DNA of 64,000 nucleotides from Parvularcula sp. IMCC14364 (GTDB lineage: Bacteria > Pseudomonadota > Alphaproteobacteria > Caulobacterales > Parvularculaceae), in assembly GCF_030758415.1 (NCBI RefSeq), contig NZ_CP132334.1, positions 2,616,001 through 2,680,000 on the forward strand. Reading direction: 5' to 3'. Shown piece by piece: positions 31,744-40,398 of this stretch (its first letter is position 1; each line of letters begins with the position of its first letter). Under the pieces are notes generated by a model that was not told the DNA's origin, did no database searches, and saw nothing but the letters and a program-made list of their open reading frames with translations. A program made the translations under genes and the position numbers.

Positions 31744-32577
31744 GGGTCTGTACCCAATTTAACTGATTGATTTGTTTGTGCAAAGCGTGATTCAGGGATT
31801 TCCGAAAGGGAGTCTTAAATGGCGCGGTTTGATTTGTCGGATGAAGAATGGGCGGTGATTGAACCGTTGTTGCCAAAGGTTAGCCGCGGCCCGAAGCGCA
31901 AAGATGATCGTACGATCCTGAACGGCATCTTTTACATTTTGCGCACAGGCGCGCCATGGCGGGACTTGCCGGAACGATATGGACCGTACACGACTGCTTA
32001 CAATCGGTATAACAGGTGGGGCGAGCGCGGCGTCTGGAAGGGCATATTCGATGCGCTCGCTGAAGAATGTGAGGACAGTCTGATCTTCATAGACGCCTCG
32101 ATTGTCAAAGCTCACCGCGCAGCGAGTGGCTCAAAAAGGGGGAACTGGCGGAAGATATTGGACGCTCACGGGGCGGTCGCACAAGCAAAGTTCACGTGGC
32201 CGTAGATGAAAATGGCAGGCCATTGCGCATTGAGGTCACTGGCGGCCATGTTCATGACAGCCAGGTGATGAATGTCTTCCTCGACTGGGAGATGCCGCCT
32301 CTGGCGATGGTCCTGGACAAAGCCTATGGCAGTGCGAAGATCAGGCGCGATATCGCCGATGAAGGTGCGTTGGCGGTTATTCCCGCCAAGTCCAATGCGC
32401 GCAATCCGGTCCCGCATGACACCAGCCTTTACGCCATGCGTAATATTGTCGAGCGGTTCTTCTGCAAAATGAAAGACATGAGACGGCTGGCTACACGGTT
32501 CGAGAAATCTCGAAGGAACTTCATCAACATGATATATCTCTTCGCAGCAAAATGCTGGATCAATTGAGTCCACACCC
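31744..32577 (+). mobile_element. IS427-type IS5-family element (834 bp)
   Basis: Inverted repeats begin GGGTCTGTACCCAATT on the left and GGGTGTGGACTCAATT on the right (minus strand). TA flanks both ends (31742-31743, 32578-32579) as a 2-bp target duplication. The element sits 89 bases after IS copy 1. Confidence 0.88.
31819..32567 (+). CDS. IS427-type transposase in two frames (frameshifted orfA/orfB)
   Basis: orfA runs 31819-32205; orfB is open to 32567 in the -1 frame. Joining them at CAAAAAGGGGGAA (about 32130-32142) restores the usual GRSRGGRTSKVHVAVDENGRP sequence. Catalytic residues are split: Asp92 (FIDASIVKAH) in orfA, and Asp (VLDKAYGS) and Glu (NIVERFFCKM) in orfB. The family normally uses programmed -1 frameshifting on an A/G run, so the gene is likely intact. 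Confidence 0.88.
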
Positions 32578-36685: not shown

Positions 36686-37699
36686 CTATTCTGCGCTTTT
36701 CTTCATCCGGCGCGGGTCAAACCCGGCGATCTTCATCGACACAACCTCATCCGGCGCCGGCAGCGCATAACCGCGCGAGGTAAACGCCTCCAGATAGCTC
36801 GCGCTGATACCGTGAATCCGGAACGCGATCAGTTCATCCGCGGTAATATCTTCATACCCCATATCCCGGACAGCAGCGATAAAAGCCGGTGTCACCCCGT
36901 GAATGCGAAAGGCGATCAGTTCCTTCGGCTCAAGACCATCAAACCCAAGCGCCGCATACTCGTTTGCAACGATTGGCGTGACGCCATGTATCCGCATCGC
37001 CATCAGGTCATCACTGTCAAGATCGGCGAAACCGGGGCCCATATCGCGCACGGCACGGGCAAAATCGGCTGTCACGCCATGAATACGAAAGCCGACCAGA
37101 TCATCAGGCCGCACCCCAACGGACGCAAGCTCGCGCACATAATCACCGTCTACCCCATGAATGACCAGTGCGATGAAATCATCCAGTTCAGGCACGTCAT
37201 ATCCAGCTGCGCTCATGTCATCCAGCAGCGAAATCCTCGCGTCCTGCAGGGCCAGCAGAAACATCTCGCTTTCCTTGGGCGCATCGAGGCCACGCGCCAC
37301 CAATGCATCAGAAAATGCTGATGACGGAGCAAAATCGCACAGGCCAATCCCGGCCCCCTCCCCCGCCTGCCCGTCACAGGTCAGCTCCCCGGCATCGCGG
37401 CGCATGGCAAAGGATACCTCCCGGCTGCCCGCAGCATTCAGGTCCTGCGCCCGCAACCCTTCAAGGTCCTCAAGGGGAAAATGATCGCTGCTGTTCATCT
37501 GCCCGCCACGTGTGGTGATCTGGCGCAAATGCAGTTTTACATGTCCCTCTGGCAGGGCATCAGTGGCGGGCGTGATGCGCCAGTCAATCGCGCCATCAGC
37601 TGCCTGGGCAACGCCCGAACCGGGCAATCCCAGACCTGCCAGCAGCAGGGCACCACTTGCCACCACGGCACTGACTGTTGTTTTTTTTATGATACGCAT
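36686..37699 (-). CDS. Secreted protein with HGV repeats, partner of the M56 peptidase
   Basis: A 337-aa exported protein. A signal peptide (residues 1-33, ending AQAADG) precedes a beta-rich N-terminal domain to ~residue 165, then five to six tandem repeats of ~31 residues with consensus GY.dLdaDdLIaFRIHGVTp.y. The same repeat makes up the C-terminus of the adjacent M56 peptidase. It follows that gene by 11 bases on the same strand, so BlaI, M56 and this protein form one operon. I infer a periplasmic partner, ligand or substrate of the sensor. Confidence 0.7.
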   Translation of the reverse strand: MRIIKKTTVSAVVASGALLLAGLGLPGSGVAQAADGAIDWRITPATDALPEGHVKLHLRQITTRGGQMNSSDHFPLEDLEGLRAQDLNAAGSREVSFAMRRDAGELTCDGQAGEGAGIGLCDFAPSSAFSDALVARGLDAPKESEMFLLALQDARISLLDDMSAAGYDVPELDDFIALVIHGVDGDYVRELASVGVRPDDLVGFRIHGVTADFARAVRDMGPGFADLDSDDLMAMRIHGVTPIVANEYAALGFDGLEPKELIAFRIHGVTPAFIAAVRDMGYEDITADELIAFRIHGISASYLEAFTSRGYALPAPDEVVSMKIAGFDPRRMKKSAE

Positions 37700-37710
37700 G
37701 TGGAATATCC

Positions 37711-39348
37711 TTATTGGTCGGAAAGTTTTTTGAGAGTGCGCACGTCCACGCCATGGGCGCGCATATCGATCATGTCATCAGCATCGAGATCGTCATAGCC
37801 AATGTCCCGGAAAGACTGGATATAGTCTGGCGTCACGCCCATGATCCGGAATTCCAGCAAGTCGTCAAAATCAAGATCCGGGAAACCGGCATCGGCAATC
37901 TGCCGTGCAAATTCTGCGCTGATGCCGTGAACACGCGCCTCGACAATTTCATCAACACCCAGTGTGCCAAATCCGGCGCGCTGGAGGCCGCGCAGATAGT
38001 CTGCACTCACCCCGTGAATCCTGAACTCGATCAGCGCATCCAGTGTGATGTTGTCGAGACCCGGATAGGCCATTGCGATTTCCTCGGCATAAGTCGGCGT
38101 GACCCCATGAATTTTTGCTTCAACAAGCTGGTCAATATCGGGGTCATGTGCCAGCGCGTGCATCGCCGGTGCCTTTTTTTCCATCCGCACAGAAACATCA
38201 GGCAGAACCGGCGCAGGCGGCGTGACGCGCAAGGCAGGCGCTTCCACAATCTCCGGCATGTTGGCAAGCAGCGGCGGATAGGTCGGGGCTGTTTCCTGAA
38301 AGGTCAGGGCCGCAACCGGGGCCGCGCATAAAAGCATGACCACGAGCGCCGCAAGACCAGCGGGCAATGCCATCGCCTGACGCCGGGCATTTTCATCCAG
38401 CACCCGCTCGACACGCTGGCGCAGGGAGTTTTTGCCCGCCGCAACACCATGGGCCGCAGCAACCCCGTGCGTATTGTCATGACGCACCGCATCCACCAGC
38501 AATTTGGCATAGCCCGTCCGGCTGGCACCATTCATCAGAACGGTATCATCCGTTGCTTCTTCGCGCAACTGATGGGCCTGACGCGCCAGTTGCCAGACCA
38601 GCGGGTTGAACCAGAAAACCGCCACAGCAGCGCGCGAAATCAACAGTTTCAGCCAGTCCCCCCGGATCACATGGGCCAGTTCATGGGAAATAATACCGGC
38701 TGCCTGGTCGCTGCTGGCGTCAACTGTCTCCGGGTCAATAACAATCACCGGACGGATGAACCCCCAGCTGATCGGCGAACTGACTTTCTCACTGATCAAC
38801 AGCGCCGCCCCTTCCCGGAATCGGAAGTCAGACTGCGCCTGCGCCAGCGCACTCAGCCATACGGGCGACTGTACCACATCGGAGGACTGACGAATGCGCA
38901 CAAGCTCCGTCAGGTTGAACAGGATCATCAACAGCATCAGCGCAGCAGGCACCGCATAGATCGCCAGCACCAACTGCGGGGCCCATGCGGCAACCATCTC
39001 TTTACTGATGACCACGAAAGGCCCGTCTGCGGCCTCTCCCTGCCCTGATACCACAGCACTATCTGTTTCGGGGGCACGCGATGTCGCCTCCGCCACCAGT
39101 TCCCGAACCTGCCGATCCGCATCACTCAGGACAGGACTCTCGGCGGTGCCAAATCCGCTCACCGGGGTTACAGATACACCCGGCAATAACAGGCTTGCCG
39201 GCACCAAAAACAACAACGCCACAAAGCCGCTATGGACCATAAAAGACCTCTCAGCCGCAGATCGTTTGCGTAACAGCTACAGCACCAACAGCACCAGCGC
39301 GGCCACCACAACAGATTTCAATGCAAGTTCCACCGCCCACAACATCAT
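37711..39348 (-). pseudogene. BlaR1-like M56 metallopeptidase with HGV repeats, interrupted by an in-frame amber codon
   Basis: The natural start is ATG 39348, inside the BlaI stop (ATGATG). It reads MMLWAVELALKSVVVAAL, then codon 24 is TAG (39279-39277), then in the same frame LLRKRSAAERSF and the rest. The first helix and RRxSAAER linker are normal for M56 proteins. An internal ATG at 39240 could give a 509-aa form lacking helix 1. Zinc motif HELAH is at residues 186-190 of that form, with RGDW and LREEATDD. The periplasmic C-terminus (last ~150 residues) holds five 31-residue HGV repeats. It would sense an envelope signal and cleave BlaI. Confidence 0.8.
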
Positions 39349-39755
39349 GACACCTCACCTTTTTCGTCAGATGACGGATCACTACCAGCCCGCGCCTTCG
39401 CAATCATCTCTTCAAGCTGCTCAATATCGCCGTCTTCCAGCTTGTCAGACATGCCGATCAGGGCCGACGCCGCATTGACAGCGGAGCCACCGAAAAACGT
39501 GCCGACAATCTTCTGCAACGCGGTCTGGCGCGCCGTATCTTCCGGAATTTTTGGCGCATACACAAAGCCGCGCCCTTCGCGCCGCCGGTTGACATAGCCC
39601 TTGCCTTCCAGGCGCGAGAGCATGGAGCGCACGGCCTGGGCACTGACAGCCTCTGACAGGTTTTCACTGATCGCAGCCGGGCTCATGGCCCCGCGCTCAT
39701 AAAGTAGTGTGACAATTTCGCGTTCCCGCGGCGGCAAATGGTCAAGCATGGTCAA
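39345..39755 (-). CDS. BlaI/MecI/CopY-family repressor
   Basis: A 136-aa winged-helix repressor: LPPREREIVTLLYERGAMSPAAI, AVRSMLSRLEGKGYVNRRREGRGFVYAP, followed by a dimerisation helix. In the family, a partner M56 protease cleaves it to induce the operon. The M56 gene overlaps it by four bases, and a strong dyad lies just before its start. Confidence 0.94.
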   Translation of the reverse strand: MTMLDHLPPREREIVTLLYERGAMSPAAISENLSEAVSAQAVRSMLSRLEGKGYVNRRREGRGFVYAPKIPEDTARQTALQKIVGTFFGGSAVNAASALIGMSDKLEDGDIEQLEEMIAKARAGSDPSSDEKGEVS

Positions 39756-39763
39756 ACCTCAAA

Positions 39764-39798
39764 GCGCTACATTTGTCGCGATGCTACAAATGTAGCGC
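39764..39798. promoter_or_regulatory. BlaI operator dyad
   Basis: GCGCTACATTTGT (39764-39776) and ACAAATGTAGCGC (39786-39798) are a perfect 13-bp inverted repeat with a 9-bp spacer. Each arm carries the TACA/TGTA core of Bla/Mec-type boxes. It starts 9 bases upstream of the BlaI ATG. Confidence 0.85.
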
Positions 39799-39879: not shown

Positions 39880-40398
39880 ATGAAAACGATTACGTCCATT
39901 GTCCTTATCGTTATTCTCAGTTTCATCGCGCATGAGGCCGCCCATTTCATCATGGCCATTGCCCTTGGCTATGAAGCTGTTGCCACCATCAATCATGTGC
40001 GCCCTGTCGGCCCGGTTGAGCCGGGTCATGCCCTGCTGATCGCCGCTGCCGGTCCCGCCCTGACATATGGTCAGGGCATCATCGGTTTCCTGATGGCGCG
40101 GGGCAGTGCCTCCATGCTTGGCCTGCATCTGGTCGTGGTTGCCGCTATCCAGCGGCTGATGGCGGCCATTGTCAGCATGAACAACCCGAATGACGAGATG
40201 CGCATCAGCCTTGATCTGGGGCTTGGGCAATGGACACTCCCGGCCATCGTCACCGGGTCACTGCTGCTCCTGATGATCCTCAGTGCCCGCACTGTCAGAC
40301 CCGGTTGGCTTTATGTCTTCTATGCCTGGCTCGGCCTCAGTATCGGCTTTTCGCTTGCGGTCTTCGGCGAGCCATATCTGCCAGTGATACGCTTTTAG
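39880..40398 (+). CDS. M50-like membrane metalloprotease-family protein
   Basis: About 172 aa with five to six membrane segments. The first carries HEAAH (HExxH), and AAAGPALT follows in a loop-helix, as in site-2 protease-like proteins. No clear Asp for the third ligand (the NPDG motif is absent), so catalysis is uncertain. ATG 39880 has GAGGAG seven bases before it. It is divergent from BlaI and shares the control region with it. Confidence 0.65.
   Translation: MKTITSIVLIVILSFIAHEAAHFIMAIALGYEAVATINHVRPVGPVEPGHALLIAAAGPALTYGQGIIGFLMARGSASMLGLHLVVVAAIQRLMAAIVSMNNPNDEMRISLDLGLGQWTLPAIVTGSLLLLMILSARTVRPGWLYVFYAWLGLSIGFSLAVFGEPYLPVIRF

Follow-up and report, generated by a model that had tools for sequence, protein, structure and literature searches.

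What might a BlaI-type repressor paired with an M56 peptidase respond to when the peptidase carries no penicillin-binding domain? The repressor/membrane-protease pair of Staphylococcus senses penicillin. BlaI/M56 pairs are, to our knowledge, common, and the signals established for them are mainly beta-lactams. The question is raised by a locus in the window analysed here, a stretch of 64,000 nucleotides from Parvularcula sp. IMCC14364, in which a blaI-type repressor gene shares a tightly packed minus-strand operon with genes for an M56 (BlaR1-like) peptidase and a protein with a signal peptide (Table 1). The last two proteins share a repeat, and our analysis was concerned with what this repeat, its relatives in other genomes and the operator of the operon indicate about the circuit.

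Table 1. Features of the operon and its surroundings, in window coordinates
Feature	Position	Strand	Basis or remark
blaI-type winged-helix repressor, 134 aa	39345..39749	-	Penicillinase_R; likeness to solved BlaI/MecI
M56 peptidase gene as conserved in relatives	37711..39348	-	Peptidase_M56 profile; frame interrupted here
M56 open reading frame, 509 aa, from the ATG at 39240	37711..39240	-	ORF list; Pfam
In-frame TAG, codon 24, end of first transmembrane helix	39277..39279	-	M56 frame
HELAH zinc-binding motif of the peptidase, residue 186	38671..38685	-	sequence
Five 29-residue repeats, C-terminal part of the peptidase, predicted extracytoplasmic	37720..38154	-	residues 363-507, iterated profile
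Secreted repeat protein, 337 aa, signal peptide	36686..37699	-	ORF; repeat profile
Beta-rich N-terminal domain of the secreted protein, residues ~36-126	37322..37594	-	model; no family match
Six repeats of the secreted protein, residues 166-336	36692..37204	-	iterated profile
Double BlaI-type operator within the dyad	39764..39798	.	CTACATTTGTCG 39767-39778; CTACAAATGTAG 39784-39795
Small membrane protein, HEAAH motif	39880..40398	+	divergent from blaI across the operator-bearing intergenic region

Organization of the operon

Profile searches and open reading frames confirm the three genes named in a preliminary description of this DNA, namely a BlaI-family repressor, an M56 peptidase with HELAH and a signal-peptide protein. 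The repressor belongs to the Pfam family Penicillinase_R, with a score of 74.7 bits against a cut-off of 22.6, and resembles solved BlaI/MecI structures. The M56 open reading frame likewise belongs to Peptidase_M56 (PF05569; 101.5 bits, cut-off 31), a family matched by all 15 members of alignment A3, while its score against NCBIfam blaR1_generic is 70.7 bits, below the cut-off of 400. In addition to HExxH, the downstream E-x3-D residues of gluzincins are present, and H222, E223, H226, E263 and D267 are invariant in A3. Values of dN/dS between 0.05 and 0.15 indicate purifying selection on all three genes.

The penicillin-binding sensor domain is indeed absent, as had been claimed; Pfam scans for it in the window protein and 15 aligned members were empty, and beta-lactam sensing through a hidden PBP domain was rejected on this ground. 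No C-terminal class D beta-lactamase-like domain was found, and that region of the M56 protein is occupied by the repeats. The operon also contains no beta-lactamase or PBP gene.

Downstream, the next gene on the same strand in the window is glycyl-tRNA synthetase alpha subunit-like, a name given by sequence inspection. On the other side of the operator-bearing region lies the divergent gene for a membrane protein with a HEAAH motif, which keeps its position in one relative (L017). The protein had no match among the Pfam protease families; it is possible that its gene is an extra target of the circuit. Three further BlaI-family genes were seen in the same genome (G000:C1:2575474, 1156934 and 424827). 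Transposase-like frames at 31819-32567 of the window, split across two frames, are likely an insertion sequence.

A repeat common to the peptidase and the secreted protein

It had been noted that the C-terminus of the peptidase and the secreted protein have a repeat in common, in at least five copies each. An iterated profile recovers five and six copies, respectively, and shuffles of the repeat region gave 0/1000 copies under E 1e-3 (best 1.5). The period of 31 residues originally given was not borne out: over all loci the spacing is 29 residues in 200 of the 285 cases, 28 in 70 and 31 in 12. The consensus is roughly D-x-L-I-x-F/M-R-I-H-G-V-T-P-x-Y/F-V-x-x-M. Neither Pfam nor NCBIfam holds a family for the repeat or for the beta N-terminal domain of the secreted protein. 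Pfam matches of the relatives' repeats to LYTB, the MnmG C-terminus and HHH_5 are weak, unconnected and summed over copies, and were rejected as chance or short-motif likeness.

The view that the secreted protein is made of repeats holds for residues 166-336 and fails for residues ~36-126, which form a separate domain. In the high-confidence AlphaFold2 model (mean pLDDT 90.3), this domain consists of six beta strands, and the short helices after it are paired into an alpha solenoid. A Foldseek search of the model against solved structures returned no match at E 0.001 or better. The likeness to TAL-effector-type two-helix arrays (VIA-align; Z of about 6.5, rmsd 6.6 over 192-201 residues) is in the common-repeat range, and no relation is claimed.

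Hydropathy gives four transmembrane helices in the M56 protein of the intact relative L024, with the repeats after the last one. The AlphaFold2 model of this protein has a mean pLDDT of 75.0, below that of the secreted-protein model. For the M56 part of this model, cryo-EM structures of S. aureus BlaR1 were matched with E 1e-5 and probability 1.0; the repeats at the C-terminus adopt an alpha solenoid made of helix pairs of the kind seen in the secreted protein. BlaR1 has an N-out/C-out topology that places its sensor on the outer side and its zinc site toward the cytoplasm (PMC9834060). Since four transmembrane helices precede the repeats in intact relatives, and by analogy with this topology, the M56 repeats are expected to be periplasmic and to share this compartment with the secreted protein. 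The suggestion that the repeats are the sensor is supported by their place after the last transmembrane helix, like the BlaR1 sensor domain, if it is widened to an extracytoplasmic sensor or docking part. Of the roles suggested for the secreted protein (ligand, decoy or substrate), that of a substrate is unlikely, given that BlaR1 has its M56 active site on the cytoplasmic side (PMC9834060).

A recent duplication of repeats between the two genes was considered and rejected. The closest counterparts of the M56 repeats are by far the M56 repeats found in other genera within a phylum (mean best BLOSUM of about 85-113, in Myxococcota); against the secreted repeats of their own locus the score is much lower, at 44-53. 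Because the M56 repeats are closer to those of related genera, the M56 and secreted arrays appear, from these comparisons, to be old and distinct partners that have long been inherited together.

Operator and probable autoregulation

A perfect dyad of 13 bp had been reported with the BlaI-type repressor. The dyad is present but larger than described, with 16-nt arms that are 94% complementary and lie 3 nt apart; within it, two BlaI-type operators stand in tandem at a distance of 17 bp. The operator is a palindrome of the TACA/TGTA type ahead of its own blaI gene and is the only exact site in the genome; one near-match was found, at G000:C1:1097845. The sequence CTACANNTGTAG occurs once or twice before this blaI in 8/8 alphaproteobacterial genomes tested, and in six of the eight its exact form is found nowhere else. 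Since the exact operator stands only before this blaI in these six genomes, the operon is probably its own main target and the circuit self-regulating. A larger regulon was rejected on the same count, a result that applies to exact operators only. A predicted operator that is essentially unique to this operon also lends support to the earlier characterization of the circuit as self-contained.

Distribution in other genomes

Contigs of GTDB were scanned with the secreted-protein alignment, and relatives were found in Parvularculaceae, Sphingomonadaceae, Acidobacteriota, Myxococcota and others, most of them with the gene order blaI, M56 with repeats, secreted protein. Matches occurred in 63/193 sampled genomes of Myxococcota, 30/199 of Acidobacteriota and 3/398 of Pseudomonadota; these counts are of matches to the secreted-protein alignment, against which M56 repeats can also score. 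In the genomes searched one by one, the repeat matches were confined to one locus, and plasmid records gave distant M56 matches only.

The pairing of the repeat with M56 genes survives a check of its co-occurrence elsewhere: the pair occurs in at least three phyla, with loci in Alphaproteobacteria, Acidobacteriota and Myxococcota. In Myxococcota the two genes lie side by side in 28 of the 28 testable loci (29 were fetched, and the remaining one starts at a contig edge). The three-gene module was found in Acidobacteriota at L136, L137, L141, L151, L157, L160 and L164. At two other loci of that phylum (L143 and L146), M56, beta domain and repeats are fused into one protein, with no separate secreted gene, and a locus in Zixibacteria (L042) probably encodes an M56 fusion too. 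With both parts joined in one M56 protein, such fusions are the strongest indication of joint action by the secreted module and the protease and, at the level of sequence, good evidence of a functional link. At another locus (L038, 5115-6843), two tandem secreted paralogues stand behind one M56 gene, and the first has only two recognised repeats.

Stand-alone secreted genes are found in many Acidobacteriota. Those at L144, L145, L149, L153 and L158 encode relatives with about four repeats, and their neighbours are a conserved secreted protein of ~440 aa and an aminotransferase-like gene. The family also ends operons of another kind: in Kangiellaceae (L044/L169; 6452-9920 in L169) and in Acidobacteriota (L152, 3356-6925), genes for an ECF sigma factor, a putative anti-sigma factor and a DUF4097 protein are followed in one operon by a gene for a secreted HGV-repeat protein. 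A further member, at L148, occurs without M56, and only a DUF4097 gene neighbours it on the contig. Since it occurs without M56 both in ECF/anti-sigma/DUF4097 loci and alone, the secreted family is not exclusively a partner of M56 but a signalling accessory of wider use.

Working model and alternatives

We lean, by a little more than an even chance, towards a regulated-proteolysis circuit of the BlaI/M56 type in which a solenoid stands in place of the penicillin sensor and a soluble repeat protein works with the protease. In such a circuit, BlaI dimers bound to the double operator would hold down expression of the operon that encodes them. The signal would be a change in the periplasm, upon which the M56 solenoid and the secreted protein docked to it, through contact between the two solenoids, would shift in conformation. 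The cytoplasm-facing zinc site would then cleave BlaI, and the operon would thereby be released. Release would raise production of the secreted protein, together with that of a TonB-dependent receptor in several relatives; newly made secreted protein may bind back on the M56 solenoid and so reset or tune the peptidase, acting as co-sensor or feedback regulator. More tentatively, and as a possibility that we would rate short of probable, the loci may represent a widespread class in which matching repeat arrays mediate recognition between protease and soluble partner, and in which the direct on/off ligand is the partner itself instead of a small molecule.

The main rival to a co-sensor or feedback role is that the secreted protein is the output of the circuit, an envelope effector that would, for example, bind damaged or foreign envelope material, with the repeat shared because each protein binds a common ligand and not the other protein. 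The secreted gene is last or next-to-last in an autoregulated operon, its product has a beta domain of its own, the family is also found away from M56, and the M56 and secreted repeats have clearly diverged, all of which would suit an effector. At L143 and L146 the protease itself carries the beta domain and the repeats, which fits a sensor or regulatory role better, and we consider a pure effector rather unlikely. Still less credence is given to a scheme resembling nutrient uptake, which we judge improbable, in which the secreted protein would deliver a ligand to, or act as co-sensor for, an outer-membrane TonB-dependent receptor under the control of the circuit. Such a receptor is encoded in the operon at five alphaproteobacterial loci, being the next gene in L018, L019, L026 and L165, and the Plug domain scores over its cut-off in both operon receptors scanned; in some Acidobacteriota, a carboxypeptidase-like receptor of the TonB type adjoins the secreted gene. 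However, no adjacent TonB-dependent receptor was found in the window, in its genus relatives or in Myxococcota, and at L166 the receptor directly follows M56 with no secreted gene.

A different alternative concerns this genome. The natural M56 frame, which the preliminary description did not mention, starts at 39348, where it overlaps the 3' end of blaI, and is interrupted by TAG; the 509-aa open reading frame starts downstream of this stop and is without the first transmembrane helix. The M56 gene may thus have decayed to a pseudogene, with the operon now constitutively repressed by BlaI. Consistent with decay, the frame is uninterrupted in relatives (L017/L024 and L023), including two close Aquisalinus relatives; a homologue of the TonB-dependent receptor elsewhere in this genome (G000:C1:1436434-1438533, L055) also has an in-frame TAG, and its relatives in G114, G443 and G074 have long uninterrupted frames. 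However, the remaining 509 codons of the M56 gene are open, with dN/dS of 0.08-0.15 against relatives, and GAGAGG lies 6 nt upstream of the following in-frame ATG, so that translation may restart there; an assembly error of the substitution type is also possible. Decay strikes us as doubtful, and it would affect this strain only, so that it is compatible with a repeat-based BlaI/M56 circuit as the explanation for the family. The TAG may be recent, may be tolerated by restart or may be a sequence error, and unless it is an error this particular strain may have an impaired circuit. Both interrupted genes are homologues of genes found in operons of the module elsewhere, for which decay, sequence error or coincidence may account. 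Genome-wide recoding of TAG as a sense codon was rejected, since, in a crude gene list for the window, roughly one putative gene in four has TAG as an ordinary stop.

Comparison with known systems

No description of the module was found in the open-access papers searched, and the three-gene set looks like a means, widespread and apparently not yet described, by which bacteria sense something beyond the inner membrane. A conserved alternative M56 sensor with a soluble cognate partner offers a testable handle on sensing by BlaI/M56 pairs. The analysis also defines an apparently uncatalogued repeat and an apparently uncatalogued beta domain, both of which are also present in ECF sigma-factor loci.

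As in BlaR1/BlaI and MecR1/MecI of S. aureus, a winged-helix repressor and an M56 metalloprotease are encoded in one operon with an operator of the TACA/TGTA type. BlaR1 and MecR1 further resemble the M56 proteins of the relatives, for which four transmembrane helices are predicted, and the putative sensor would likewise be C-terminal and extracytoplasmic. In contrast to BlaR1/BlaI, a repeat solenoid takes the place of the penicillin-binding domain, a secreted repeat partner is present, and a beta-lactamase or PBP gene is lacking. In envelope stress responses of the RseA/RseB and CpxP type, a soluble periplasmic protein tunes a membrane signalling protein and is made under its control; the likeness lies in the working model only, and the transducer here would be an M56 protease with a repressor, not an anti-sigma factor or a kinase.

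Mycobacterial BlaR (Rv1845c)/BlaI is an M56/BlaI pair that also lacks a beta-lactam sensor domain and is a precedent for non-classical M56 sensors; the passage that describes it mentions no repeat solenoid or secreted repeat partner (PMC5473688). Finally, the ECF sigma/anti-sigma/DUF4097 loci (L169 and L152) resemble the present operon in ending with a member of the secreted repeat family, but they use another transducer, and the secreted family is therefore common to more than one signalling system.
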